Shown here piece by piece: positions 1 through 30,564 of a stretch of DNA of 64,000 nucleotides. The stretch spans positions 16,174 to 80,173 of IMG/VR virus record IMGVR_UViG_3300035698_020096; one strand, given 5' to 3'. The position numbers and the translations under genes are program-made. The DNA comes from a virus. The first letter of the stretch is position 1. The number at the start of each line of letters is the position of its first letter. The notes under the pieces were generated by a model, which saw nothing but the letters and a program-made list of their open reading frames with translations, did no database searches and was not told the DNA's origin.

Positions 1-3000
1 CTGACTCCCTATTCCTTTATCACTAATCCATGAATCTTCAAATCCCATCATTAGAGAAGCTATTAGTCCCTTACCTGTAATACCTCCCTGTTGCGTTTCT
101 AAACTACCTATAAGGGGTTCAAGGTACTTCTTATTACGAATAATAGTAGAACCATGAGAATAGAAATAGCTCTTGAGGTTAGAAGGACTGAATAAACCAA
201 AGACTTGACCTACATCTATATCCCCAGTAGCCCCTGCTTTATTCCTATTTAATTGTTCAGTTACATAAGAGAAGAAGTCTGTCTTACTTCCTGGTACTTG
301 ATATAGCTCCTCTAGACCAGTAAATTTAAGTACAGCTTTAGGTAGTCCTCCAGTACCTTCAACTCTCTTACCTCCACCTACCATAATGGAACGTAAATAT
401 ACCATTTCCCATAACAACTGGTTATTATCAGCATTACCCATCAGTTGTTTAGAATCAAGTACATACTCGACACTATTCTCTGAGGCTCTATACCAGGCCT
501 GTCTATCTAGTTTAGATACGTTAGGTAAATCATTAATAGTTCTAAAGTTATCGATAACTTCTGTGAGTGCCCCTACTTGGTCTCTAGAGTCAACTACTGA
601 TTTAGTAACATAATTACCTTCAGTATCTGAATAGGTATAGTATCTATCAAAACTATCTCCAAGAGTAGCCCTTACTAGCTCTAACTTAGCTTCTCCTGTA
701 AGCTTATCCATACTTACTATTTCTTTAGGAATACCTCCCCCTTGCTTCATCATTTCCTCAGCAGAACCCCAAACTAATACTCTATTAGTATCAGAGTCAA
801 AGGTAACTATATCTCCTCTATTTGCTAACATTACCCCTTTATGGCTCCATTCCTCTGATAGTTTAGAAGACTTCTGTCTCTTCTCACTCTTATCTATAAA
901 GCCACTCATAGTACCCATACGTCCTATTACCTCAGCTTGAGACACCTTATCTAATCTCTTCCAGTCATAGCCTACAGACCTTAATTTAGATTTAACGAAT
1001 TCTCTATCATCTGTACTAGAACCATATAAAGGATTAGCCCAAGCGTAGTCACTATAGTCCCCAGTGAGTTGAACTAAAACTATAGGGTCAAATCCTTCCT
1101 TATTACCAGTAAAACCTTTAATACCCCCAGCCATAGAGTCAGCTAATTTAGCTCTAGTTAAAAGTAGCTTTCTAGCTATAGAAGTAGACCCTGGTAGAAA
1201 CTCATTATCTAAGAATCCAAATTCATCCTTAAGTTCTTTCTTAGCTTCCTCAATTAGATTAGCTATTTCGCTATTAACAACTGTTCTAAAGCCTGCATCA
1301 CTAACTACCGCTGTATTTAAATCAGTACCTACAGTCGTCTCCACCCTACTCCACATAGTTCTAAGACTACCCATTAATTCTTCACTGTTTACAGATAGTC
1401 TTTCTAAGGAAGCCCTTTCAACTACTTTCTCAATAACTCTAGAAGGATTGTACATCCCTAGATTACTAGTACCCACTACATCCCTAAGTATTTCTACAGC
1501 TCGTTTAATTCCCCATGATTCCTTCTTAGCTAATTGAGACATTAGGTCTACTTTAATACCTGTAACTCTTTCATTAATTAGACCTGATACATCTCCTTTA
1601 GTAGTAAGACGATAAGATAGTTCTCTATCTAACTCAAACATAGGTCTACCTCCCAGAACATTCTTTAAACGTTGAGGTATCTGTGAAGCTTTCTTTGCTA
1701 CATTAAACGTATAGTTTATTGACTCATTTACAGTCTCATCTTTAAATGGAGTAGCATCTATTAAATCTTTAAAGTCTTTATTTAATCCATTAGGTAAAGC
1801 TTCCCCAGATTGGATTCTATCTACTAGTTCATCCGTATTAGCTATACCCAACGTTCTTAAAGATGACGAATATTTATCATACAGCAGTTCACTTATATAA
1901 GTAACATATTGGTCTCTAGTGTTTATATAACCCACCCCTGCAAATGAGGCCAGTTGCACTGAGCTTACATCTCCAGTAGGAGTTTTATTAATACCATACA
2001 CACTAAGTCCAGTAGTTTCTTGACTAGCTGATATACCACTACCGTCTGCTACTCCTCTAATAGCCCCTTCAGTTCCCTTACCTGTAGTATTAGCAGGACC
2101 AAAGATATAAGATTGAGCTAGAGCATATCTATAAAAAGCTTCACCTTTATTCAATTTATCTATAAATATTTGTTGATTATTATTAATACCGTATAAGGGA
2201 TTTTTAAACCATGCTTGAGATGTTCCATAGGTAGAAGCTCCAGATTGAGTAATAAAGGGTTCTAACATCCCGGCCTTTACTTCTTTAATATCTGACTTTA
2301 ATTTAGTGGCATATAGAAAGTCTTTTCTACTCTCTAATATCCCTAATGCAATATCGGATTGGAAGGTACTTACACTTTCCAATCCCATGTATCTATCGAA
2401 GGTTTCTCTAATAGCGCCTACAGCATCTTTCTTAAGTGACTCAAGAGCCGATCTTCTTTCGCGACTAACTTTAGGGTCAGTTATCTCTCTATTAACATCT
2501 CTAATTAACTCAAGATGACTTAGTACTGAACGTCTAAGAGCTAAGTCAGTATCTCCATATATTTGCTCCTTAGTAAGCCCTCTATTAGCTAATCCTTCCC
2601 CTTTAGCTAACTTATCATATATACCCCCTCCAGTAAGTTCAAGAGCTCTTTTAGAAGTACCACTTACCCTCTCTCCTAAATGTTTAGTAGTAAAAGTGGA
2701 TATAAGTTTAGATATTTCATAATCACTTAATGAATTATCTAATAGGAAAGTACCAGCACTTGAATCAGTACCTCCTGAAGCTATATGACCTCTAGATAGA
2801 TATTCTAGGTAGCCTAATCCAGCAGTAGCTAATCTAGTAGTTTGAGCATCGTACTGGCTTTCCTTTAGAGCTTTCATATAAGCCATCGGCTCAGCTACTA
2901 AAGTTCTATAAGTAGTCTCTGCTGCTAATGTACTAACTACATTTATTAACGAATCTACTGGACTTAATCTCAAAGCTTCTTTAGATTTAACTACTCGGGG

Positions 3001-6000
3001 GTTTAATTCATACTCCCCAGTTTCATCATTACGAACAAAGGAACCTTCTCCATAAGGTATTCCCCCTATATCTGTGTCAGTATTATTAACAAAGAGAGAG
3101 TTACCTATTACTTTATTCTGGTCAATCAAATATACAAAGCCCTGATTAGTTCCCATCCCTCCTTTTAAACTAGTTAGTCTAAACTTAATAGGATTAAATC
3201 CAACATTAGTATCTTGGAATCCTCTATATCCAACCATATCCGCTGGATTAATAGTGAGTTCCAACGCTAGTAAACTTCCTCCTTGTCCATATATATTCTT
3301 AACTCCCAGTCCCCCTGTATCTAAACCCATATCCTTATTTAATTGTTTAACTCTAGCTGTTATTTCAGCTATACCCAGAGCATTAACTTTATTCTCCCAA
3401 CTAGCTCTAGTTCCTTCAAGAGAAGTGTCAACATTACCTACAGTAGTTTGAGTCAATCTTCTCCATTCTCTTTCTCTATCCGTACCTTGCTGAGCATAGA
3501 AGTTCTCCAAATCTGCACCTAAATTCTCCTCTTCATTTCTATATAAGATTCCTTTAGATTTAGCATGCTCTCTCATCTCTCTAGCTAAGGCAATAACTCC
3601 TACTTCAGAACTAACAGCTTCCTTATCATCTCGACTAAATGCCATTGATTCAGAACCAAAGTTAGAGCTTCCAGTAATACTAGCTATATGTCTATATGTA
3701 TCTTCTCCAAGACCCATACCAGTTCTTTCAATAGCAAATACATTTTTAACGTGAGACATAGTTTCAGTAACACCGATAATGTTACCTCTAGTCATAGCAA
3801 GTAATTGCTTAACTGTTCTATCTGCTGCCTTACTAGCTACTGCTTTAGATTTAAACTTAGACCCTAAACCTAAACTATATTTCTCTTCTATGTTGCTAAG
3901 ACTATCTCTAGAATTAACCCCGGTTTCATCTAGTCCTAATACTTTGAGTAAACTATTTCTATTACCATGCTTACTAGTGAGTTCTTGAAGACTGCTATTA
4001 TATTCGGTCTCCATTCTCAGAGAACCAATCCTCCTATAATCTTCATTAGTAAAGTCAGATAAAGAGGGTCTTCCTTCTGTCCATCCTTTAGGTTTATATC
4101 TTCCATTTCCACTATCTACAGCAGCTTTACCTAATAGGTAATGAACCCTTTCTGTCATAGGCTCTAAGACTTTATCCCTATAGTTCCTAATATCAACAGA
4201 GATATAAGCTTGATTATTAATTAGTAAATCAAATAGATTCTCTTGTATTTCATTTCTATATATAGACCTTCTATTTGATTCTCTTTTACCTGTTAGTTCA
4301 TTAAGAGAAGTTTGCCGACTATTATCAGGTCCAAACTCCCCTCCAAAGTCTCCTCCCTTACCGTAGTACAAGTCATTGTCATATTGAAGTAACCATACTT
4401 GGTTTAGGTTCATATAGACTTCTACTCTTTTATCTGAACCCATCCCCCTCTTACCCTGAGCATAAGAAAGTATAGACCGTAAACCCTGACCTATGTCCCC
4501 CGCTAGTCCTACTTGGCCCCCAGTAAAAGCTTCACCCCCTGTTGCTCTTCTAATCCCTCCAATAGCTAATCCTCTAGTTTGGAGGAATAGATGAGTATCA
4601 ACATATTCCTTAGCTTTTTCTTCCTCTATAGAATCACTCTTTTTAGATAAACCTTTAGATTCAAGAGTACCTACATCTCTCATACTCATATAATCTCTAA
4701 GGTCAGCTCCAGTATCTCTATAGTTTTTATTTATAAGTCTTATCTTCTCAGTAATAGAAGCAGTACTATCAAATCCACTGGATACAGGGTTTAATATACT
4801 TCTCATTCGATTATGAAAGATAACTATTTCTTCATAGTTAGACCCTGCTTGCACTACTGAGTTACCTACTGGGGAAGTTAAGTTAAACGAACCCAACATT
4901 GCATATCTTTCAGTGGTATATGCCTTAGGGTGATACATGCCTTCTGACATCATCTCCAAGGTAAAAGAGGGAAGAAGTTTAGCTATCTTACTATTTATAT
5001 CTAAAGCCCTTTCTTCACTAGATATAGCAATCTTATTAGAAGCTGTAGCGCTTGCCTCTAAATCAAACTCTTTATCTAATATCTTCTTTTGAAGAATATA
5101 TAGTCTTTCCATAACCACTATATTAGGCCCTAGAATCTGGTGTCCTACCATATTTCTTCTATCCCCTTCAGTAGGGCCAGCTAGTCTTAATTGAAACTTA
5201 AACTCACCTCTAGCTATACGCCCACTTTCCCTTTCTAATTTCTTAACTAGTACATCAGCTACCGCTTTATTCTGCAGTTGAAATAAATCAATAGTTAATT
5301 CTTTCTCAGCACTTTCAATAAAGGCTACAGCTGAACGTATACCTGGTTTAGCTACATAATCTGTCTCTGTAAGTATCTGATTAGATACTTCTCTAACCCT
5401 CTCAGTTATATCGGTAAACTTCCCATATTGTCTATTAAGATTAGAAGACTCTCTACTTCTTATTAATTCTTGATGATATTCAGATACACGTCTAGTAGCT
5501 CCTACTTCTTCGGTAACTAATACATTATTCATTAACCAATTACCTGAAGCTATAGTTACTCTATCTCCACCCCATTGGTGTGAGTTATACCATCCCATTG
5601 GTTTAGTAACATATAACCCTCCATATAAAGATTTATTCCCTACTTGAGTCACATCATGTTTAAATAGATGTTGGTATGTTCCGGAAGAAACATAGCCTTC
5701 CCATTCTTCTCTTCTTCTATCCTGTTCTTTACTACTGAGAGTATCATCAAAGAAGCCTTTATCTAATCCAATATTAAAGTTACCTATAACTCTATTTATA
5801 ACCTTAGTACCACTTAAGGTCAAGTCAAACACATCCTGAGAGAAAGAAGAAAATGCGTTCCTACCTAAAGCTCTAAGGACTTCAGTCTGAGGGTCTATAT
5901 TACCTGTACTAACTGATTCAGTAGATAGCTTCTTCTGCCAACCCTTTCTATTTACTTCTCTCTTTTCACTAGTTAAACCTCTATATGAGCTTTGATATCC

Positions 6001-6135
6001 AACAATTAAATTACCAGATTCGTATGTATCTGTTCTTTCTTTATTCCATGAAAGATGGAAGTTAACCGCACCTCTAAGAGCATCATCAACCCCCATATTT
6101 CTAAATGCTGAATCATAATTCTGTATCAATGCCAT
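1..6135 (-). CDS. Giant protein with a PLD-like (HKD) domain, 3' end cut by the window edge
   Basis: The minus strand is open without a stop from an ATG at 6135 to position 1, giving at least 2045 residues that begin MALIQNYDSAFRNMG; the C-terminus lies outside the window. Residues about 265-440 resemble one half of a phospholipase-D superfamily fold: a strand-helix unit (AEKELTIDLFQLQN) followed by HPK at 402-404, Glu at 409 where the classical motif has Asp, then GSFN at 415-418 and NYEE near 433-436. I could not find an equally clear second HKD motif, so a nuclease would have to dimerise or use a diverged second half. The rest is rich in charged and helix-forming sequence with no obvious membrane segment and is not recognised. 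The gene is divergent from the chaperone/portal operon. It could be an ejected virion protein or the missing tape-measure protein. The reading frame is certain; the function is not. Confidence 0.72.
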   Translation of the reverse strand, partial: MALIQNYDSAFRNMGVDDALRGAVNFHLSWNKERTDTYESGNLIVGYQSSYRGLTSEKREVNRKGWQKKLSTESVSTGNIDPQTEVLRALGRNAFSSFSQDVFDLTLSGTKVINRVIGNFNIGLDKGFFDDTLSSKEQDRRREEWEGYVSSGTYQHLFKHDVTQVGNKSLYGGLYVTKPMGWYNSHQWGGDRVTIASGNWLMNNVLVTEEVGATRRVSEYHQELIRSRESSNLNRQYGKFTDITERVREVSNQILTETDYVAKPGIRSAVAFIESAEKELTIDLFQLQNKAVADVLVKKLERESGRIARGEFKFQLRLAGPTEGDRRNMVGHQILGPNIVVMERLYILQKKILDKEFDLEASATASNKIAISSEERALDINSKIAKLLPSFTLEMMSEGMYHPKAYTTERYAMLGSFNLTSPVGNSVVQAGSNYEEIVIFHNRMRSILNPVSSGFDSTASITEKIRLINKNYRDTGADLRDYMSMRDVGTLESKGLSKKSDSIEEEKAKEYVDTHLFLQTRGLAIGGIRRATGGEAFTGGQVGLAGDIGQGLRSILSYAQGKRGMGSDKRVEVYMNLNQVWLLQYDNDLYYGKGGDFGGEFGPDNSRQTSLNELTGKRESNRRSIYRNEIQENLFDLLINNQAYISVDIRNYRDKVLEPMTERVHYLLGKAAVDSGNGRYKPKGWTEGRPSLSDFTNEDYRRIGSLRMETEYNSSLQELTSKHGNRNSLLKVLGLDETGVNSRDSLSNIEEKYSLGLGSKFKSKAVASKAADRTVKQLLAMTRGNIIGVTETMSHVKNVFAIERTGMGLGEDTYRHIASITGSSNFGSESMAFSRDDKEAVSSEVGVIALAREMREHAKSKGILYRNEEENLGADLENFYAQQGTDREREWRRLTQTTVGNVDTSLEGTRASWENKVNALGIAEITARVKQLNKDMGLDTGGLGVKNIYGQGGSLLALELTINPADMVGYRGFQDTNVGFNPIKFRLTSLKGGMGTNQGFVYLIDQNKVIGNSLFVNNTDTDIGGIPYGEGSFVRNDETGEYELNPRVVKSKEALRLSPVDSLINVVSTLAAETTYRTLVAEPMAYMKALKESQYDAQTTRLATAGLGYLEYLSRGHIASGGTDSSAGTFLLDNSLSDYEISKLISTFTTKHLGERVSGTSKRALELTGGGIYDKLAKGEGLANRGLTKEQIYGDTDLALRRSVLSHLELIRDVNREITDPKVSRERRSALESLKKDAVGAIRETFDRYMGLESVSTFQSDIALGILESRKDFLYATKLKSDIKEVKAGMLEPFITQSGASTYGTSQAWFKNPLYGINNNQQIFIDKLNKGEAFYRYALAQSYIFGPANTTGKGTEGAIRGVADGSGISASQETTGLSVYGINKTPTGDVSSVQLASFAGVGYINTRDQYVTYISELLYDKYSSSLRTLGIANTDELVDRIQSGEALPNGLNKDFKDLIDATPFKDETVNESINYTFNVAKKASQIPQRLKNVLGGRPMFELDRELSYRLTTKGDVSGLINERVTGIKVDLMSQLAKKESWGIKRAVEILRDVVGTSNLGMYNPSRVIEKVVERASLERLSVNSEELMGSLRTMWSRVETTVGTDLNTAVVSDAGFRTVVNSEIANLIEEAKKELKDEFGFLDNEFLPGSTSIARKLLLTRAKLADSMAGGIKGFTGNKEGFDPIVLVQLTGDYSDYAWANPLYGSSTDDREFVKSKLRSVGYDWKRLDKVSQAEVIGRMGTMSGFIDKSEKRQKSSKLSEEWSHKGVMLANRGDIVTFDSDTNRVLVWGSAEEMMKQGGGIPKEIVSMDKLTGEAKLELVRATLGDSFDRYYTYSDTEGNYVTKSVVDSRDQVGALTEVIDNFRTINDLPNVSKLDRQAWYRASENSVEYVLDSKQLMGNADNNQLLWEMVYLRSIMVGGGKRVEGTGGLPKAVLKFTGLEELYQVPGSKTDFFSYVTEQLNRNKAGATGDIDVGQVFGLFSPSNLKSYFYSHGSTIIRNKKYLEPLIGSLETQQGGITGKGLIASLMMGFEDSWISDKGIGSQ

Positions 6136-6472
6136 ATTCTATATCTCTCTAAATCTTTAATATATTCTCGTTTAATCTAAAGGGACTTTCTCATGCATAA
6201 CATGAATTTAGTTAACTAGTCACCTACATTCACCCATTTTATATCCCACGGCTAAAGCACATGGGTTTTACTGTGCTTTCTATAATTCCATATAGCCATA
6301 TCAAGCCACCATTAGTTCAACATGAGAGTCTGAGTCTTAGTTCCTTTTTCAATTAATATTTAATATTCTTCCCAATCTTTCATTCATATAAATGATTTTA
6401 ATACTTCCCACATATATTTAATAACATCTGTTATATTTAAATAGACCAATCAATTATTTATCAAACAACATT
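6136..6472. other. Divergent intergenic region
   Basis: This 337-bp stretch separates the giant minus-strand gene from the plus-strand chaperone gene and has no credible reading frame. It must carry the divergent promoters, which I cannot place with confidence because the region is AT-rich throughout. The only recognisable element is the 94-bp IS605-type RNA end at 6197-6290. Confidence 0.7.
6197..6290 (-). repeat. IS200/IS605 (TnpB-type) RNA right-end element, copy A
   Basis: Read on the minus strand, this segment shares most of its sequence with 63751-63844 on the plus strand. It contains AAAGCAC...GTGCTTT (7-bp stem) interlocked with ACCCA...TGGG, an H-type pseudoknot around the core TGCTTTAGCCGTGGGA. 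That core resembles the 3' end of TnpB guide RNAs and right ends of IS200/IS605 elements, which are common in cyanobacteria. Identity with the other copy stops abruptly after AAATTCATGTTAT, where an element border or guide would begin. No tnpB lies beside it. It sits about 60 bp before the start codon of the giant gene, so it could instead be a conserved leader RNA. Confidence 0.55.
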
Positions 6473-15955: not shown

Positions 15956-17623
15956 ATGAATGAATTAAATACTGAACTAAATAACTATATAAACTTAATA
16001 GTTAATACTGACAAATTCATCAATGCAGTAAGAAGAGCCTCTGTCACCCTAAACGACAGAGGCTCTATTTCTGACGAGGTGATTAAGGAAACAACTATAT
16101 ATGACTCCTTTCCTCGAATTGTATTAAGAGTAGCTACAGCTAAGACAAAAGAAGGATTGCCTGTATTTAAAGGTATTGGGTATGGTAATGATTATGCAGA
16201 CCAAGAACGAGAAGTATATAGAGTTATATCTCAAGAGCCCTTTAGTTCAGGGCTAACACGAGTAGCCTCTAGTCTTACTGCTGCCAAGTTAATTAGAAGT
16301 ATTCCTCTTAACACAGACATAAAGTTTCTAGATTCATCTAAGTTTATTGAAGAGCAGGCTATAGACGACCTTGATAGTTTGATAGGGATACTAGTTGATA
16401 ACCCCGAACTTATTGAAAGTCTTATTAAAGAAACTCAGTCCTCTAGCTTCTTCTTCGCTCAGGAAATAGACCTAGCTACTATACCCCCCTACGCCTTTGA
16501 CCGAGTAACAGGTATAGTAGCTAGATTAGATAGTGCTGACTTATATCGTAATGTAAAGATACCTACTAATACTATTGCTGAAATACATATATCTATATCT
16601 AATGCAATTGATATTAAAGAATTAAGATTACCTATTACAGATGGAGAAGATATATCGGATATAGTCAGTAAAATAGCAAATATTATTAATGAAGCTCTCA
16701 TATCTCTAGATGCTAATCTTATAGCTTCTGTAACTATTAATCCTCCTATTAAAACCCCTCTTAAATATTCAAAGAGAGAATTATATGGAGACCTAAATAA
16801 TGGGAATAAAGAGCTTATGTTTACTATTTATCCTACTATTCATAGAATTCAAATAGCAGCTAAGAGTCCAACCATAGAAACAGAGAGACAGTTAATATCT
16901 ATTAGTTCTGTCACAAGAAGTATAGAAGGGGTTGTAATTGGAGGTATTACAGGACTAGTATATAGTACCACTAGTAACTATAAGAATCTAACTAATAAAG
17001 GTCATCATTCCCTACTTGTTGATACCACTCGTATAGCTGTAAAGGATATATCCTCTACCAATAAGATAGACCCTTTAGATATAGATAGCTTTCACTTTAG
17101 ATTAAAGGATGGATATACAAGTACCCAGCCAGGTAGATTCCATGTTCGTATTAGTAATCTACCTGATAGTTCTTATCCTACTGAATGGTATATAGATTTA
17201 CCTAGTTCTCAACCTCATATTATAACTAGCTTAATACATGATTCCTTTTATGAAAGAAGATTAGGTAATCAAGTAGTTACTAGTATGGGTTCCATTAGTA
17301 CCTTGCAAATAATAGCATTTGTTTTATGTCCTAAAGAGATAAAGATAGTAGTTGACCTCTTAGATATACCTGAAGGTCTAGAAGTGGCCACTGGCTCTTT
17401 AACTCAAGTACTTACTAGTTATAGTCAATACTCTAGGTCAGTAACAGTTAAGTCTCAATTAGACTATGTTAACTACGCTAGGTCTACTAATCCTAAACAA
17501 GACCCTGTAGGTATTGGAGGTAAGGTTCCTCCTAGATATTCAGCTATATATCAAGACTTACAAGGTAAGTTAGCTAAGTTAAACAGGTGCAGTGTTCCCT
17601 TCATTAGAGGTCCTATATGTTAG
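15956..17623 (+). CDS. Putative neck or head-tail connector protein
   Basis: A 555-residue protein with no motif I can name. The sequence alternates Ile/Val-rich strands with charged turns. Residues 1-150 are helical, 190-260 look like a compact alpha/beta unit, and the C-terminal 80 residues end in a basic, Cys-containing tail (RCSVPFIRGPIC). Its stop overlaps the start of the next gene by 7 bp, so the two are translationally coupled and probably act together. Position between capsid and sheath genes makes it a candidate for adaptor, neck or tail-completion protein. The coding assignment is firm; the role is inferred from gene order only. Confidence 0.55.
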   Translation: MNELNTELNNYINLIVNTDKFINAVRRASVTLNDRGSISDEVIKETTIYDSFPRIVLRVATAKTKEGLPVFKGIGYGNDYADQEREVYRVISQEPFSSGLTRVASSLTAAKLIRSIPLNTDIKFLDSSKFIEEQAIDDLDSLIGILVDNPELIESLIKETQSSSFFFAQEIDLATIPPYAFDRVTGIVARLDSADLYRNVKIPTNTIAEIHISISNAIDIKELRLPITDGEDISDIVSKIANIINEALISLDANLIASVTINPPIKTPLKYSKRELYGDLNNGNKELMFTIYPTIHRIQIAAKSPTIETERQLISISSVTRSIEGVVIGGITGLVYSTTSNYKNLTNKGHHSLLVDTTRIAVKDISSTNKIDPLDIDSFHFRLKDGYTSTQPGRFHVRISNLPDSSYPTEWYIDLPSSQPHIITSLIHDSFYERRLGNQVVTSMGSISTLQIIAFVLCPKEIKIVVDLLDIPEGLEVATGSLTQVLTSYSQYSRSVTVKSQLDYVNYARSTNPKQDPVGIGGKVPPRYSAIYQDLQGKLAKLNRCSVPFIRGPIC

Positions 17624-22694: not shown

Positions 22695-24776
22695 ATGAAA
22701 TATTATACACCTGAAGCTTCAATACCAGCAGCCGCTATTACATATGCTGGCAATCTTTCTCCTTATCAACCTATATTATTTACTACTCAATTTGGGTATA
22801 CAGATGTAGGGTTATGTAAAGAAGGAGATGACCCTTTTAAAGGTAGACCATTAGTATGGACTATTTCATATATAAAAGTAACTCTAGTTAGGGATTGGTC
22901 TACATCTATAGCTAGTATTGTACTTACTTCATCTATGCCTAGTGCTGATTGTCCAGTACCTAAACTTCCTAATCTAGGAAAGATTAGAGGAGGTAACAAT
23001 CCTTACTTAACCTTTGAAGATGAGATAAGAATATATATGGGATATATAGGGGATGTTAATACTCCTATAAACGCTTCTATGTTAGATGAACACCCTATTG
23101 ACCTTTGTCCTAGAGATATACCAGATGTAGCTGAAGGTTTAAAGTGTGGACCTAAACATGGTGAAGACTTTAAGCAGAATGACAGTAAACCTTTAGCTCC
23201 TGTATTCTGGGGCTTCATAGATAATATCTCTATGGTAGGAGATTCTAAGTCAGGGGTTAAACTAATGATTCAATGTAGGGATAGAACCAGGGTCTTATCT
23301 GATACAAAGATAATAGCTATTCCCGAATTACAAGGTAGACTAGTAGATTCTAGAGATAAAGGTTTCTTTAAGAAGAAAGGTTCGGGAGGACTAGCTAGTG
23401 GTAGAAGAGAAGATATTCTTATTCAGGTAGCTAGAGCAGCAACTGGTAGTCTCTTTGCTAGTACCGCACGTCAAGGTCAAACTACCTTTGGTCCCCCAGA
23501 TACTAAACAATGTTGGAAACCTGTTATAGGGGGCAGTGATGAAAATCAAGAGAATTGGTATTATCCAGATTGGGGCCCTAAGATATCTGAAGGTACTCCT
23601 CAAAGTCAAAGACCTTCTCAATTAGGAGTACAACTATTTACTGGCTTTGTAGGTGAGGATAAATACTTAACTAAGATAAGCCCTGATGAGGATCCTGCTC
23701 TATGGTTAAGAGAAGCAACGCATAAAAAGATGCTTCCTTATTCAGAACCTAGATTTCACATGTGGGTACAACGTCCTCCTTTGTCTAAAGCTAATGGAGC
23801 TGCTGTATTTCAAATACTTAATAAGAGTCCAATAGAAATCATTCAGTTTCTAGCTAATACTGAAGAAAGACCTACTGATTTCTTTGCTAGTCATATTAAT
23901 GGAGACTATATATTTGGACCTAGAGTATTAGATACAAGTGGATTCTATGACCCAGTAAGAATGCACCGTACCTATTTCTTTAAGGAATATCCTAAGAATG
24001 TAGGTAAGCCTAAGGTTAATCAAATGATACTTAGGATTAGAACAGCTTCTTCATCTTTAGCTTCATTCAATAGATTCGTAGTAATGGACTCGGAGAGTGA
24101 GGGAGCTTACGATGCCTTTCTAGATAAACTATCTATTGCTTTAGAAGTATTACCTTGGACTCTTGACGGTAATACTGAAGATGAATATGGTTCACTATTC
24201 CCTGATACAGGAGGTAGAGCTATATATCCTCCTTGTAGAAATCAGATAATATATGACGGTAACCTTAGCTCTTATGGTCCTGACCCTTTCAATAGAGTTG
24301 GGGGAGCACTTATCGTAGGTATTAGTCAAGCTAGAACATGGGCTAGAGAAATGCAAGGGGTACAGTTAACCCTTACTGGTGACCCTACATTCTATCCTTC
24401 TGAAGCTATTAGAGTTTATAACACTGTACTTCATGATTACGCTACTTCTATTAACCCGGGTACTTCTTATAGTCAAGAGTTATTAGAGAAGAATCAACGG
24501 CAGATAGAAGGATTGTTTAAGGATGAATCTACTATATCTAATATAATGGACTCTTCTAATAAGAAAGGAGTACAGGACTTTAGTTCCCAACAAGCTAAAA
24601 CTGTTACTGAGATTATGACTCAGACAACTAGAGGTCATATGGTTAATACACAAAAAGACCCACTTAAAGGATTAATTCTACCTGTGTATAAAGTAAGGTC
24701 AGTCCAACATGTACTTAAAACATCAGGTACTGGTGCTGGTTTTATTACTACTATTGAATGTATTGGAGATTATTAA
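22695..24776 (+). CDS. Baseplate hub protein (gp27-like)
   Basis: A 693-residue protein immediately upstream of the spike gene, the usual hub position. Residues about 110-120 (DEIRIYMGYIG) and 175-200 (VFWGFIDNISM followed by LMIQCRDRTRVL) match the opening of hub/gpD-type proteins: a strand defining an instrument of the form D-x-I-x-I-x-x-G-Y and a second strand ending in D-R-T. The C-terminal third contains LTLTGDPTFYPSEAIRVYN, also typical of hub domains that end the second barrel. Hubs form a trimer joining the hexameric tube to the trimeric spike. It is larger than T4 gp27 (391), with insertions in the middle. The last 100 residues are Ser/Thr/Gln-rich before a final beta strand. Confidence 0.72.
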   Translation: MKYYTPEASIPAAAITYAGNLSPYQPILFTTQFGYTDVGLCKEGDDPFKGRPLVWTISYIKVTLVRDWSTSIASIVLTSSMPSADCPVPKLPNLGKIRGGNNPYLTFEDEIRIYMGYIGDVNTPINASMLDEHPIDLCPRDIPDVAEGLKCGPKHGEDFKQNDSKPLAPVFWGFIDNISMVGDSKSGVKLMIQCRDRTRVLSDTKIIAIPELQGRLVDSRDKGFFKKKGSGGLASGRREDILIQVARAATGSLFASTARQGQTTFGPPDTKQCWKPVIGGSDENQENWYYPDWGPKISEGTPQSQRPSQLGVQLFTGFVGEDKYLTKISPDEDPALWLREATHKKMLPYSEPRFHMWVQRPPLSKANGAAVFQILNKSPIEIIQFLANTEERPTDFFASHINGDYIFGPRVLDTSGFYDPVRMHRTYFFKEYPKNVGKPKVNQMILRIRTASSSLASFNRFVVMDSESEGAYDAFLDKLSIALEVLPWTLDGNTEDEYGSLFPDTGGRAIYPPCRNQIIYDGNLSSYGPDPFNRVGGALIVGISQARTWAREMQGVQLTLTGDPTFYPSEAIRVYNTVLHDYATSINPGTSYSQELLEKNQRQIEGLFKDESTISNIMDSSNKKGVQDFSSQQAKTVTEIMTQTTRGHMVNTQKDPLKGLILPVYKVRSVQHVLKTSGTGAGFITTIECIGDY

Positions 24777-24834: not shown

Positions 24835-26901
24835 ATGTCTTATTCTGATGGAACAGCTACTCTTAGAAGACAATGTACTGCTAATGAAGATAATAGAAAA
24901 TCCTTTCTTGCTACTCAATCTAATTTTAAGATTACTCAAGGAGTAGTAGAAGGTCTAGTTGGTATGGAGAGTCCTGAGCATATAGGTATGGTGTATAACA
25001 TCAGACTTATAGATACAGGACATTTAGTTAGATGTAGAAGATTAGTTAACTCTGCTTCATTTGATGGAGTAGGAGAATATAATCCTTTAGAAGAAGGAGA
25101 CCCAGTAGTAGTAGCTTTTAAAGAAGGTATGCTTCAAGATGGGATTATCCTTGGTTGTTTCTACACAGAAGGTACATATAAAGAGTTCTATATAGAAGGT
25201 CAAGGACTTAAACCAAGAGAAGTAAAGTCTAATTCTGTAAGGAATGTAGAGTTTAACCAACCTTCTATTCACCCTAATCGCGTGGCTCAACCCGATGCCT
25301 GGGTACATATTATTGGAGGCAAGGTAGGGCCATATAGAGACCCTGCTCTTACTGATGGTAGTACTAGTATGAAAGCTAATAGAAGACCTCCCCCAGCTTC
25401 TATTCAAATAAAGAATAAATTAGGAGATGTAGGTCAATGGGCTAAAGGAGATATCATCTTCTATTCAGATAGTAATATCATTCTTTTCTCTAGTCAAGAA
25501 GGGAAGTCTAAATGTAAAAGATTAAGAGAACTGGCTGAGTATTACCAACAAATGGTAGAGGAAATGGAGGTTTTTATAGGAGTACAAATTGAAGATGAAA
25601 TAAAACCAGCAGTATTTGAAGATGAAGCTGTTAAGGTTAGAAGCCTGGTTAATGCACATGAAGCTTCTGATAAATTTAATGATGAAGTTATAAATCCCGA
25701 ATCTTCTGAAACTAATACTGAAAACCCTGAATCTTCTGACTCAACTGACTATAACTATACAGATGACGATAGACGTAATAGAAGATATATTAATGGAGAA
25801 CCTAATATCGACTATATGATGTATGCCCCTTTAGTCGAATATCATCTTCCTCAATTAAAAGCAATGGCAGCTAAATGTAAAGAGTTAGCTATTACATGTA
25901 AAGAAGAGGCTATCAATCATGCAGGGGTTACTAATAGTAGACTAGAGGCTAGTCAAATAGTACAAGACGCTTGTTCTGCTTTATCCTCAGGGGGTCAACT
26001 AGATGATGAAAAGATAGAAGCATTGGCTGAAGGTCGTATATGTTTAAGTGGTGATGTAAGACATTACCCCTTTACTAAATGGAAGTTAGATAAATCTCAA
26101 GGTGTTGAAATAGAAGACTTAGCTTCTGACTCCGAGATTAAAGATGTATTAGTACATAAAGCTCTACTAGAAGCTTTTAAAAAGATGAGGGATGCTGCTC
26201 TATCTGAATCAGGGGGAGATATAGATTTAGCTATCGCTAGTGGGTTTAGAGACAAGGAATATTTAGATAAATATGGTTTAGACCCTAGAGATTGTGAATT
26301 ATTAGGAGGAGAGTTCCTACCTAAACCTGAACAATCTTTTGAGACAGGAGCTATAACTAATACGGGTAAAACAGGTTTAGTAGTTATAGACCCTGGACAT
26401 GGTGCGCCCGACCCAGGTGCAGTAGGTAATGGTATTGAAGAGGCTACTTATGTATTAGAGATAGCTAAATCTTTAGTTTCTACTCTTAACGGAGCAGGTA
26501 TTAAAACTCTATTAACCAGAGATATTGATGCTCAAGTACCTTCTCTTAGAGGAGCTGTAGAGTTAGCCACTAGTAATAATGCCAATCTCTTTGTTAGTAT
26601 TCATTGTAATGCTTTAGCTGGAGCTATTGCTACTGGATTTGAGGTATTTAGATATCATTCAGTTAGTGATACATTTGCAAATAATACAGTTAAAACTCTA
26701 GCTGCAAATCTTCCTACTCTTCCAAATAGAGGAGTTAAGTCTGGTAACTTCACCGTAATTAAAGCTTCCTCCGCTATCCCTTCTATTCTTGTTGAATTAG
26801 GTTTTATAAGTAATCCTAAAGAAGCAGAGTTTATGAAACAAGCCGATACTAAGTCTAAATATGTAACCGCACTAGCTCAAGCTATTATTAATACTTTATA
26901 G
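24835..26901 (+). CDS. Baseplate spike (gp5-like OB fold) with N-terminal half of VanY and an amidase_3 domain
   Basis: A 688-residue multidomain protein. Residues about 30-125 form the gp5/VgrG-type OB domain (GMVYNIRLIDTG; DPVVVAFKEGMLQDGIILG). A charged helical region follows to about 400. Residues about 413-485 resemble the N-terminal half of VanY/M15 D,D-carboxypeptidases: HYPF, then a helix LLEAFKKMRDAA, then IASGFRDKEYL, the counterpart of the SGYRS strand. Before the M15 zinc motif appears, an N-acetylmuramoyl-L-alanine amidase_3 domain begins (about 510-688): VIDPGHG, EEATYVLEIAKSL, SIHCNA and ELGFISNP supply the zinc ligands His, Glu, His and the catalytic Glu. The matching VanY C-terminal half opens the next gene, 4 bp later. 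The protein would puncture the outer layers and cut the peptide from glycan at the tail tip. Confidence 0.82.
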   Translation: MSYSDGTATLRRQCTANEDNRKSFLATQSNFKITQGVVEGLVGMESPEHIGMVYNIRLIDTGHLVRCRRLVNSASFDGVGEYNPLEEGDPVVVAFKEGMLQDGIILGCFYTEGTYKEFYIEGQGLKPREVKSNSVRNVEFNQPSIHPNRVAQPDAWVHIIGGKVGPYRDPALTDGSTSMKANRRPPPASIQIKNKLGDVGQWAKGDIIFYSDSNIILFSSQEGKSKCKRLRELAEYYQQMVEEMEVFIGVQIEDEIKPAVFEDEAVKVRSLVNAHEASDKFNDEVINPESSETNTENPESSDSTDYNYTDDDRRNRRYINGEPNIDYMMYAPLVEYHLPQLKAMAAKCKELAITCKEEAINHAGVTNSRLEASQIVQDACSALSSGGQLDDEKIEALAEGRICLSGDVRHYPFTKWKLDKSQGVEIEDLASDSEIKDVLVHKALLEAFKKMRDAALSESGGDIDLAIASGFRDKEYLDKYGLDPRDCELLGGEFLPKPEQSFETGAITNTGKTGLVVIDPGHGAPDPGAVGNGIEEATYVLEIAKSLVSTLNGAGIKTLLTRDIDAQVPSLRGAVELATSNNANLFVSIHCNALAGAIATGFEVFRYHSVSDTFANNTVKTLAANLPTLPNRGVKSGNFTVIKASSAIPSILVELGFISNPKEAEFMKQADTKSKYVTALAQAIINTL

Positions 26902-26905
26902 ATAT

Positions 26906-28825
26906 ATGTCAGATAAGTCGAATAGATTAAAATCAGTAGCTCCAGTAGAGAATAGTGAACATTTAACAGGATTCTCAGTAGATGTAGTAGATAAGAAAGA
27001 CCCTAAGACCTTTGATTTAGATGGTAATTATAAAGCTAAAGCTTGGGAATGGGTTGAAGCTAATTGTGGAAAGTATGGCTTCGAGGTATCTTTCCCTAAA
27101 GGTAATAAGCAAGGACTTAATTATGAACCCTGGCATCTTAGATATATAGGACCTGAAGTACCCGCTGAATTACAATTAGTATTTGCTTACGCTAAATCTG
27201 GTGGTAATGCGGATGAAGCTACATTAGATAAGATATGTAAAGAGTCTCCTAAGACTGAATCTATAGAACATACTCAAGATGATATTAAATCTAGAACTGA
27301 TTTAGACTTAGATAGAATTGTTAAGACCCATAGTATAGAAGCTCTTACTGTTATTACAGGGAAAGGTACCCTAAATAGCAAAAAGGCAGCTAACTACGCT
27401 TTTAACGCTGATTCAGCTATAAAGCTACATATAGCCCATGCTGTTTATCAACACGTTAGTTCGTTAAACATTTCTATAGATACCAATATTACTGCTAGTC
27501 CTAATGTACTTGCGGAAAATGAACCTGAATACCCCTCGGGTAAATCCTTTTCTATTAAGTATTTAATTAATAAAATGTTAGAAGTAAGCTCTAATACAGC
27601 TACTAATATGTTAATTCAGTACATAGGTGGAATTTCTCTTGCTCGCAAAAAAGTAAACACCTTAGGTTATTCATTAACTCTGATTAAGGATTATATATCT
27701 CTGCCAGGTAAGGTGGTAGGGGATAACCCTGATGTGACTAATACCTCTTCTACGTTTGATATGGCTAAGGCTATATTTCAATTACTTAAGTTGAAACACA
27801 GTTTACAGTTAGATGTTTTAAACATAATTGTTAATTCTCTTAGCAAAGCAGAAGTACCTAAAGGTATGCGGAATATAAAATTTAATAAGATTGGATATAA
27901 TTCTAGAGTCAATGTCAATGTAGCTGTGTATCAAAATAGTAATGGTTACTTTATAATAGCTGCGGCTAACCTTACAGAATCCAGAGATTTTGAATTAACT
28001 AAGGTAATGTTAGCTACTAACGAGGTAACTCAAGCTATAGACAATTTAGAACTCGAAGGTATAGATTTTACTAAAGCTCCTGGAACTGCTTCTAGTGCTG
28101 CTTCTAGTGCTGCTGCTCCTCGTTCTACTACAGCTAAATCTCTCCCTGTATTAATGTATCACTCTATTGGTAATGGAGAAATAGATCCGAAATATGCTAG
28201 ATACGAAGTTACCCCTGAAAGGTTTAGAGGGCATATGCAGCATCTAAAGTCTTTAGGATATACAGCAGTATTAGCTAATAATATTATCTCAGGGGACCTA
28301 CCAGATAAACCTATCGTTATTACTTTTGATGATGGATGTTTAAATAATCTAACTAATGCAGTCCCAATAATGAGAGAATTCGGAATGAGGGGACTATTCT
28401 TTATTACTACTGATTGGTTAGGTAAAACACATCCCGAATATAAAGTCCCTATTATGAATAGTAATCAAGTAGCTCAGTTAGTAAATGGAGGGCACGAAGT
28501 GGGCTCACATAGTTTAAGTCATCCTAGACTATTGGATATATCCGAAGCCCAACTTACTAAAGAGTTAGTTGATTCAAAGAATATATTATCCTATATAGTT
28601 GGAGCTAATATTAAATCTTTCTCCTACCCATTTGGTAGAACTAACTCTTCCATAGTTCAAGCTACAGCTAAATATTATCAATTAGCTTATATGGCATTTC
28701 TGACTTCTGATAACCCAGGTAATAGTAAACATATGATAAACAGAGTAGAAATTGATGGTAAAGTAAGTGATTATGAATTAGAAATAAAGGCCCAGCATGA
28801 ACATAACTTCCTAAAGCTTACTTAG
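26906..28825 (+). CDS. VanY C-terminal half + beta-lactamase-fold domain + NodB polysaccharide deacetylase
   Basis: A 639-residue protein with three enzyme domains. Residues 1-85 are the C-terminal half of a VanY carboxypeptidase: SEHLTGFSVD (His19, Asp26) and EPWH (Glu74, His77) give the full zinc and catalytic set, but the usual N-terminal half is absent here and is found in the preceding gene. Residues about 120-375 resemble class A beta-lactamase-like serine hydrolases: Ser170-A-I-Lys173 (SxxK), Ser228-Ser-Asn230 (SxN), and Lys328-Ile-Gly330 in place of KTG. An Ala/Ser linker follows near 390-410. Residues about 415-635 are a NodB deacetylase with TFDDG, HSLSH and FSYPFG motifs. Together these would attack D-Ala-D-Ala ends and remove N-acetyl groups. 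The gene starts 4 bp after the spike gene. I know of no family with this exact arrangement. Confidence 0.8.
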   Translation: MSDKSNRLKSVAPVENSEHLTGFSVDVVDKKDPKTFDLDGNYKAKAWEWVEANCGKYGFEVSFPKGNKQGLNYEPWHLRYIGPEVPAELQLVFAYAKSGGNADEATLDKICKESPKTESIEHTQDDIKSRTDLDLDRIVKTHSIEALTVITGKGTLNSKKAANYAFNADSAIKLHIAHAVYQHVSSLNISIDTNITASPNVLAENEPEYPSGKSFSIKYLINKMLEVSSNTATNMLIQYIGGISLARKKVNTLGYSLTLIKDYISLPGKVVGDNPDVTNTSSTFDMAKAIFQLLKLKHSLQLDVLNIIVNSLSKAEVPKGMRNIKFNKIGYNSRVNVNVAVYQNSNGYFIIAAANLTESRDFELTKVMLATNEVTQAIDNLELEGIDFTKAPGTASSAASSAAAPRSTTAKSLPVLMYHSIGNGEIDPKYARYEVTPERFRGHMQHLKSLGYTAVLANNIISGDLPDKPIVITFDDGCLNNLTNAVPIMREFGMRGLFFITTDWLGKTHPEYKVPIMNSNQVAQLVNGGHEVGSHSLSHPRLLDISEAQLTKELVDSKNILSYIVGANIKSFSYPFGRTNSSIVQATAKYYQLAYMAFLTSDNPGNSKHMINRVEIDGKVSDYELEIKAQHEHNFLKLT

Positions 28826-28828
28826 AAT

Positions 28829-29299
28829 ATGAAATTTAAACCCCTAATAGTAATTCATGAATCCTTATATTCATATGAAGAAGTAGCTCCTTTATTTCAA
28901 TCATCTACACATAAAGGTAGATATCATGCATTCATTAAATGTAACGGAGTAGTTCTATATATAACCCCTTCTAATAAGAAAGCAGAAGCAGCTTATGAAT
29001 CTTCCTTTAATGGAGAGGATGTATGTGATTCAGTAGACCCCTTTGCTTATCATATATGTCTAGAATCACCCGAAGGTTCTAATCCTCATGCTTCTTCACA
29101 TATAGGATATACAGAATCTCAATATTATTCTCTAGCTTGGTTAATAGCTAGAACTAAAGTTAATGTAGATAGAATAGTAGGTCATAAAGATATAGATACT
29201 AGAAAGCAAAGTATTGACCCTAGAAATTTAGATTTAAGTAGAGTTAAGTTAGATGTAAATAAGTTTAAACCCACTTCTTATCTTGAATTAGGAATATAA
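28829..29299 (+). CDS. N-acetylmuramoyl-L-alanine amidase (amidase_2 / PGRP family)
   Basis: A 156-residue single-domain amidase of the T7-lysozyme type. IVIHES places the first zinc His at position 10, GRYHAFI supplies the paired strand of the fold, and GHKDIDTRKQSIDPR near the C-terminus gives the second His and the conserved Asp-Pro. The length equals a minimal amidase_2 domain and there is no signal peptide or wall-binding domain. It cleaves the bond between MurNAc and the peptide stem, the same bond as the amidase_3 domain two genes upstream but by a different fold. It begins 3 bp after the previous stop, so it is co-translated with the virion lysins. It could be a virion enzyme or the endolysin; no holin-like gene is adjacent. 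Confidence 0.82.
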   Translation: MKFKPLIVIHESLYSYEEVAPLFQSSTHKGRYHAFIKCNGVVLYITPSNKKAEAAYESSFNGEDVCDSVDPFAYHICLESPEGSNPHASSHIGYTESQYYSLAWLIARTKVNVDRIVGHKDIDTRKQSIDPRNLDLSRVKLDVNKFKPTSYLELGI

Positions 29300-29316
29300 A
29301 TAGAAAGAATAAATAT

Positions 29317-30564
29317 ATGAGTAAGCGAGAAAAGTACGAGAAGTTATTAAATAATGTAAATGTAGTAGCTGCATTACATATGATTAATCAAGTTGAATCT
29401 AATTATGGTTCAGATTCATACGGAGTTATATTTGGGGGTAGTACCCCTCCATTAGGTACAGACCATCCTAGAATAAGCGTACCTAGGAATGATGGTACAG
29501 GGAGAACTAGTAATGCTGCGGGTAGATATCAATTCATGTCTTTCACCTGGGATGAAGTTAATCAAAATATTGGACCTTTAGATTTCTCCAATCCTAGGCA
29601 TCAAGATATAGCTGCTATTGAACGTATAGAGGTAAGAGGAGTATTAGATGCTGTTATTAAAGGAGATATAGAATTCGCTCTTACAGGAGGACATCCTGCT
29701 TCTATGGGAGTAGATGCTTGTTACTTATATCCTTCTGGGATGGCTTGTGAATGGGCTGGTTTAGCCCCTAGTAGGTATGGTCAAGGTGACGCTACTATAG
29801 CTCAGAATATAGCTGACTTCGAGAAGTTTAAAGGAGTACCTTTACCTAAAGGAGGGGGTACTCCCACTGATACAAGCAGTAATGTACCTACTACACCTGG
29901 AGATGGTAATCAAACAGCTATGCAAGCTTTCTCTGCATCAGTAAAGTATGGGGCCTCATCTATCGTTGGATTCTTAGGAGATACTAAACGAGGTATTCTC
30001 TGTCATCAGATAAGGTTATGTAAAGTAGAGGCAGGAAATCCACCTACTTCTGTTATGAAAGTAATGGGAGGTGAAGGTAACTTAACAGGCTTCACTCCTG
30101 GTATGAATAGTACAGCTACAAATGCTAATTCAGGAGGTGCTCTTAAAGCTGGAGAGTTTACACCTAGACCGGGAGCTTATATAAGTTCTGCACCGGGGGT
30201 ACCAGTAAACTCTCCTTTTGGCATGAGAGGGGGACGCATGCACAATGGAGTGGACCAAGCTGCGCCGGAAGGTACTCCCTTACTAGCCTCAGGGGATGGG
30301 ACAGTAACTGTAACTGGATATGAACCAGGTTATGGAAACCATGTTTTTATTAAACACTCCGATGGGCTTACTACTACCTATAACCATATTTTAGATGGAG
30401 GTACTAAAGTAAAGGCAGGTCAAAAAGTAAAACAAGGAGATGTTATTGCTCTAATGGGTACTACAGGTAGAAGTTCAGGACCTCATATTCACTTTGAATT
30501 CTGGAGAGGAGACCCGGATGCTGGTACTCCCATTGACCCTCAAACTATTATTCCCGACCTCTAA
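29317..30564 (+). CDS. GH104-like muramidase/transglycosylase fused to M23 endopeptidase
   Basis: A 415-residue bifunctional lysin. Residues about 10-175 follow the lambda R/GH104 pattern: a helix carrying Glu27 (MINQVESN), a GG-x-T loop with HPR at 50-52, S-x-A-A-G-R-Y-Q-F at 65-73, T-W, then Q-D-x-A-A. This cleaves the glycan. A Gly/Thr/Ala linker and a middle region of unknown role follow. Residues about 285-410 are a LytM/M23 zinc peptidase: S-P-F-G-M-R-G, His309-N-G-V-Asp313, a Y-N-H-I strand and His390-I-His392, all ligands present. It would cut peptide cross-links. It is the last of four consecutive wall-active genes; its stop overlaps the next start (TAATG). No signal peptide is present, which fits delivery in the virion. 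Confidence 0.85.
   Translation: MSKREKYEKLLNNVNVVAALHMINQVESNYGSDSYGVIFGGSTPPLGTDHPRISVPRNDGTGRTSNAAGRYQFMSFTWDEVNQNIGPLDFSNPRHQDIAAIERIEVRGVLDAVIKGDIEFALTGGHPASMGVDACYLYPSGMACEWAGLAPSRYGQGDATIAQNIADFEKFKGVPLPKGGGTPTDTSSNVPTTPGDGNQTAMQAFSASVKYGASSIVGFLGDTKRGILCHQIRLCKVEAGNPPTSVMKVMGGEGNLTGFTPGMNSTATNANSGGALKAGEFTPRPGAYISSAPGVPVNSPFGMRGGRMHNGVDQAAPEGTPLLASGDGTVTVTGYEPGYGNHVFIKHSDGLTTTYNHILDGGTKVKAGQKVKQGDVIALMGTTGRSSGPHIHFEFWRGDPDAGTPIDPQTIIPDL

Follow-up and report, generated by a model that had tools for sequence, protein, structure and literature searches.

Most accounts give a phage one or two virion lysins. The virus record IMGVR_UViG_3300035698_020096 (80,173 bases) raises the question of how seven kinds of wall-related domain came to stand in four neighbouring genes of a single phage, and whether one of these enzymes, a carboxypeptidase divided between two of the genes, can still work. 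The window analysed here is a stretch of 64,000 nucleotides (positions 16,174 to 80,173 of that record); coordinates refer to the window unless a relative's contig is named, and the genes and domains placed below lie on its plus strand.

Genomic setting

The four wall-enzyme open reading frames (ORFs) are consecutive, lie on one strand within the tail module, and follow genes that profile searches assign to a portal protein, a major head protein and a tail sheath of 1000 residues. Upstream of ORF1 stands a conserved tail protein of 693 aa, a homologue of LMM01 gp093 (22695..24776; PHROG 34291, 2.3e-84), which shares 51% identity with its Microcoleus phage homologue and 36% with that of LMM01. 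No DNA-level relatives were found among named phages, and by sheath identity the nearest named ones are Microcoleus phage My-WqHQDG (45%) and the Microcystis phages of the Ma-LMM01 group (40%). The module has the LMM01-like order of sheath, gp093-like protein, OB spike and M23 gene, and the tail modules of Ma-LMM01 (Fukuivirus; gp091-gp098) and My-WqHQDG share this arrangement, including the C-terminal enzyme on the spike and the GH104-like/M23 gene. Unlike the window, both lack VanY, NodB and a split domain: LMM01 has a weak Amidase_3-like domain and one GH104-like/M23 gene, and the Microcoleus phage has a beta-lactamase-like domain, Amidase_2 and two M23 genes. At the far upstream end, positions 1-6470 show a strongly negative GC skew (about -0.28 over the first 6.4 kb) and lack a closed ORF of 100 aa; they probably belong to a large minus-strand gene that leaves the window, comparable to LMM01 gp080 upstream of the head genes.

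Seven wall-related domains

A sequence-only reading of this locus had listed seven peptidoglycan-active domains in four consecutive genes, and that count of seven kinds of wall-related domain, as judged from profiles and motifs, is correct. Six exceed the curated Pfam cut-offs, namely Amidase_3 (1.2e-42), VanY (2e-18), Beta-lactamase2 (6.1e-19), Polysacc_deac_1 (4e-25), Amidase_2 (2.4e-8) and Peptidase_M23 (5.1e-30), so that a lack of profile matches for several domains, named in that reading as grounds for abandoning it, was not found. The seventh, the GH104-like muramidase domain of ORF4 (29317..30564; PHROG 28672), has no Pfam match and was identified otherwise: residues 33-122 match lambda lysozyme (3d3d, 1am7) at 6e-12, which places the N-terminus of ORF4 with GH104 by sequence, and the domain also matches PHROG endolysins. 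The same protein ends in the M23 endopeptidase domain (30235-30540), and between ORF2 and ORF4 lies the Amidase_2 gene, ORF3 (28829..29299), with homologues in most relatives.

Catalytic motifs had been described as visible for each domain, and they can be read in Amidase_3 (zinc and catalytic motifs DPGHG, EEAT, SIHCN and VELGF), VanY, NodB, M23 (HNGVD, HIH) and Amidase_2 (VIHES, GHKD, DPR). The NodB polysaccharide deacetylase domain (28136..28822) combines its profile match with TFDDG and an HxxxH motif (SHSLSHP), and its nearest solved structures are 6go1 (2.9e-19) and 4hd5; its substrate could be another polysaccharide instead of peptidoglycan. The Ala/Ser-rich linker that precedes it (28100-28140) differs in length from that of the sister contig IMGVR_UViG_3300035034_002254 (L006), the ORF2 products being 639 and 635 aa long.

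The Beta-lactamase2-fold domain (27389..27964), placed by Pfam and by an alignment of the clade, carries the boxes SAIK, SSN and KIG. The change from KTG to KIG reported earlier is real but is no lesion of this phage, since every relative with the domain lacks the Thr: KIG recurs in L007, and the others have KWG, KVG, KAG or no box. With SAIK and SSN present but no K[TS]G, the boxes do not fit a class A beta-lactamase, and the domain may instead bind peptidoglycan or form a slow acyl-enzyme. The SxxK lysine is missing in L032 and is replaced by Gln in the sister contig (SAIQ), so not every domain need be active. In the comparison of window positions 27411 and 27422 with L006 13420-13520, the replacements are D to A and K to Q in the SxxK box, two of the three substitutions of that stretch.

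A carboxypeptidase split around an amidase

The earlier reading listed a D,D-carboxypeptidase and overlooked the most unusual feature of the locus, the split of this domain. The carboxypeptidase domain itself stands, but it is divided between ORF1 and ORF2, and the D,D- specificity is not established because the nearest solved structures of VanY are LdcB/YodJ-type L,D-carboxypeptidases. ORF1 (24835..26901; 688 aa) encodes a spike or baseplate protein with the N-terminal half of VanY followed by Amidase_3, and ORF2 (26906..28825; 639 aa) encodes the C-terminal half, the beta-lactamase-like domain and NodB.

The Pfam VanY match in ORF2 (aa 1-90, 26906..27175; motifs SEHLTGFSVD and YEPWHLRY) covers only profile positions 52-131 of 132, and the start of the profile is found in ORF1, ahead of Amidase_3; VanY is therefore split between the two genes. 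The N-terminal half (ORF1 aa 402-490, 26038..26304; motif SGFRD) aligns with the intact VanY of L007 and L009, and ORF1 aa 439-476 within it match profile positions 3-37 with 14 bits, a score below threshold when taken alone. Joined, the halves cover positions 3-131 with 83.8 bits, the N-terminal half completing positions 3-51, compared with 82.8 bits for the intact domain of L009 and 91.0 bits for that of L007. Neither polypeptide contains a complete VanY domain, as Amidase_3 (ORF1 aa 516-686, 26380..26892) lies between the halves, and all four zinc and catalytic residues of this VanY/LdcB-type (M15B) domain (SxHxxGxxxD, ExWH) are in ORF2.

At the junction (26899..26908), the stop codon TAG is followed by ATAT and the ATG of ORF2, the first ATG of its frame, so that translation can restart 4 nt after the ORF1 stop. 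In the alignment, L007 '...NKRTCTDL|DETSIKSVAPYTHSEH...' corresponds to window '...DPRDCELL|[linker, Amidase_3, stop, ATAT, M]|SDKSNRLKSVAPVENSEH...'; because conserved VanY sequence lies on both sides of the break in the alignment with L007 and L009, the restart codon sits at the domain junction. A +1 shift near the ORF1 stop might instead produce some full-length chain, in which Amidase_3 would be inserted in a continuous VanY; many enzymes tolerate inserted domains, and the open stretch of the ORF2 frame begins at 26876, 8 codons upstream of the stop. Such recoding is nevertheless very improbable, given that ACT TTA TAG ATA TAT G holds no recognisable slippery sequence and that ORF2 has its own start in a TATATG context common in the genome (TAT immediately precedes the ATG at 7 of 30 gene starts but at 5% of the remaining ATGs).

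A mistake in assembly or sequencing where ORF1 meets ORF2 was considered and rejected: the sister contig has the identical junction, with three substitutions from the start of ORF1 to the ORF2 linker, and a frameshift alone leaves the amidase unexplained. All other relatives with a VanY keep it in one piece, which makes insertion into an intact gene the simpler direction, and we infer that an intact VanY was split by the arrival of Amidase_3. No direct repeats of at least 9 nt were found at the ends of the insertion. That the amidase was freshly taken from a known host is unsupported, its best genome matches being 29-41% identical and spread over many phyla and its GC content in line with that of the phage; the top solved match, 5emi (3.1e-26), is only suggestive as to origin.

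The closest relatives by the upstream tail gene, L007/L008 (3300047552_001097, 3300049844_000054; 58%) and L009 (3300007723_000001; 55%), carry a spike with VanY and the beta-lactamase-like domain in the order of the window, followed likewise by Amidase_2 and GH104-like/M23. They differ in having VanY intact in a single ORF and in lacking Amidase_3 and NodB.

Fate of the divided enzyme

Gene fission normally breaks enzymes, and the insertion could have killed VanY, leaving ORF1 as a spike-amidase and ORF2 as a beta-lactamase-like/NodB protein, each with a leftover fragment, and six usable domains in all. The split is known in two near-identical genomes only, so a recent loss of function is possible, and the beta-lactamase-like domain of the sister contig, without its SxxK lysine, points the same way. 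The conservation of the halves argues otherwise. The N-terminal half is 34.9% identical to L007 and 40.8% to L009, these two being 35.2% identical to each other; for the C-terminal half the corresponding values are 51.7%, 47.1% and 50.6%. By sequence identity, then, neither half is diverged faster than the intact copies, and the motifs are kept. In addition, ORF2 starts exactly on the domain break, and Amidase_3 has the base composition of the phage, so it need not have come from a bacterium very recently. On balance, a dead VanY appears unlikely, though it is the most serious competitor of a working one.

The structure was judged on a model of the intact L007 VanY (pLDDT 85.8), which adopts the LdcB/VanY fold (4mph, E 1.1e-10). 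The break corresponds to residue 103/104 of this model, where an irregular stretch links strand 80-84 to helix 118-121, and the N-terminal half supplies a core helix and strands of the fold. Despite holding all zinc and catalytic residues, a free C-terminal half would, according to the model, be an incomplete fold. Reassembly of the two VanY chains is thus the most likely reading, drawn from sequence conservation and from analogy with phage enzymes in pieces.

Two such enzymes, Aeh1 NrdA and the Aeromonas phage 25 gp43A/B, are reported to be active (PMC2988022). In Aeh1 nrdA (mobE), the T4 topoisomerase gene 60/39 (mobA) and gene 43 of Aeromonas phage 25, an insertion leaves the enzyme in two chains, as here, and, as with NrdA, related phages (L007/L008, L009) retain the intact gene. 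The likeness ends with the splitting element: in those cases a homing endonuclease or spacer divides the gene, whereas here the insert is Amidase_3, a wall enzyme fused to the N-terminal half within a structural gene. A literature search for split tail-spike enzymes found none. Fusions of spikes with enzymes and phage genes in pieces are already known; what is new here is that one wall enzyme has been split by another inserted into it, within a spike gene. The split VanY offers a naturally occurring case in which to ask whether inserting a domain and dividing a gene can leave a virion with a working two-chain enzyme.

Placement in the particle

The N-terminal region of ORF1 (aa 21-252, 24895..25590) is an OB-fold spike domain that matches a baseplate protein family (PHROG 30576, 8.9e-30) and, below threshold, Phage_base_V (0.0024). 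Its structural model is of modest confidence (mean pLDDT 63, best over the barrel). The top solved matches are spikes and baseplates of contractile systems, including cyanophage A-1(L) and T4 gp5, and small OB-fold proteins (IF1, ribosomal proteins) are also among the matches. ORF1 thus has the N-terminal OB fold of a gp5/VgrG-like central spike, and the baseplate family match together with the contractile-spike structural matches indicates that it is very probably the spike. An OB-fold tail-spike domain at the start of ORF1 would place the wall module in the baseplate of a contractile-tailed phage. As in T4 gp5 and VgrG-type spikes, the OB fold is joined to a wall enzyme; gp5 has a single lysozyme, and here there are several enzymes and a second chain.

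All four genes had been called virion genes, a description that is well supported for ORF1; for ORFs 2-4, a baseplate location is suggested by descent and synteny. In L007 and L009 the segment of VanY and the beta-lactamase-like domain is on the spike chain itself, and most relatives, LMM01 among them, place the M23 gene behind the spike, either directly or past an Amidase_2 gene. These observations, with the persistence of the set among tail genes across the lineage, tell against ORFs 2-4 being late lysis proteins rather than virion parts. Endolysins often contain Amidase_2, GH104 and M23 domains, but LMM01 has two annotated endolysin genes elsewhere (gp068 and gp069, away from the tail module), and a lysis role seems improbable.

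A possible two-chain spike arm

The explanation we favour, and hold to be somewhat better than evenly probable, is that the locus is an expanded modular baseplate cassette of an LMM01-like contractile cyanophage, where the insertion of an amidase left VanY as two chains that would reassemble. In this reconstruction, ORF1 would be a gp5/VgrG-like central spike whose C-terminus is the slot where the lineage swaps wall enzymes, and VanY with the beta-lactamase-like domain would be the ancestral content of that slot. The Amidase_3 cassette would have entered the irregular segment between the VanY halves and ended the reading frame, with translation restarting 4 nt on at the C-terminal half in a gene that also carries the C-terminal NodB. 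Of the two resulting chains, the VanY halves would fold together on the spike, restoring the carboxypeptidase and holding an arm of VanY-C, the beta-lactamase-like domain and NodB on the virion. Beside this arm, Amidase_2 and GH104-M23 would cut amide, glycan and cross-link bonds of the thick cyanobacterial wall during injection. The domains, their motifs, the split and the intact relatives were observed, whereas reassembly, the place of ORFs 2-4 in the virion, the host, the direction of the event and the mode of action are what we infer. More tentatively, and with rather less than an even chance, the split VanY may serve both as catalyst and as docking joint of the two-chain arm, allowing seven wall activities on the baseplate.

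Host and wall

The nearest named phages, which infect cyanobacteria, and the occurrence of nblA in relatives suggest a cyanobacterial host. This gene was detected above cut-off in three of 13 relatives' records (L012, L015, L027) and weakly in L007; neither nblA nor psbA was found in the window's own record, which may be partial, and a search across 84,980 genomes gave no prophage match. The peptidoglycan of cyanobacteria is a thick one, with about 60% cross-linking (PMC7459746, PMC8566892), and this suits an enlarged set of wall enzymes. A wall-processing tail module and a host with thick peptidoglycan, both proposed from the DNA letters, fit these findings, whereas the stepwise order of action proposed with them is unsupported. 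The contrast drawn with typical phages, said to have one or two such activities, also holds, as a 2017 review could list two phages only, PRD1 and phi11, whose virions have two different lysins (PMC5380687). The domains of the cassette are candidate enzymes for opening cyanobacterial walls.

The spike C-terminus as an enzyme slot

The relatives comprise 41 loci found via the upstream tail gene, together with the two named phages. Their spike C-terminus is variable, carrying VanY with the beta-lactamase-like domain (L007, L009, L015), VanY (L014), the beta-lactamase-like domain (L001, L013, L032), Amidase_2 (L011, L017, L018, L019, L021, L027), a GDSL hydrolase (L012), a weak Amidase_3-like domain (LMM01) or nothing recognised (e.g., L039). 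Downstream there is often a separate Amidase_2 gene and then an M23 protein with a variable N-terminus, which may be GH104-like, GH108 (L010), GH19 (L019) or a phage lysozyme (L017). The lineage as a whole thus uses the spike C-terminus as a slot for amidases, carboxypeptidase, the beta-lactamase fold and GDSL hydrolase, paired with exchangeable muramidase-endopeptidase genes, a pattern that would suit the thick, cross-linked cyanobacterial wall.

Comparison of the cluster across related phages, suggested in the earlier reading as a check, shows the window to be the richest of those examined, with seven recognised wall domains against 2-6 per relative; it also shows that multi-enzyme cassettes are usual in the lineage, so that the module is the extreme of a family habit and not a one-off. 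NodB was found in the window only (one of 14 records) and in none of the 13 relatives' records, and Amidase_3 exceeded the cut-off in none of the 13 relatives. By eye, the spike C-termini of L010 (12260-15115), L035 (12046-13965) and L002 (7959-9524) appear Amidase_3-like and possibly degenerate; among such C-termini, a sub-threshold Pfam match was obtained in LMM01 only. The C-terminal GDSL/SGNH hydrolase on the spike of L012 (1993-3708; 3.2e-15) is perhaps an O-acetyl esterase and, as such, a functional parallel of NodB. The gp093-like and spike genes, adjacent in most relatives, are separated by approximately 5.8 kb in L027 (11848-17653), and the gp093-like tail gene of L021 (9627-11402) is apparently broken into two ORFs.
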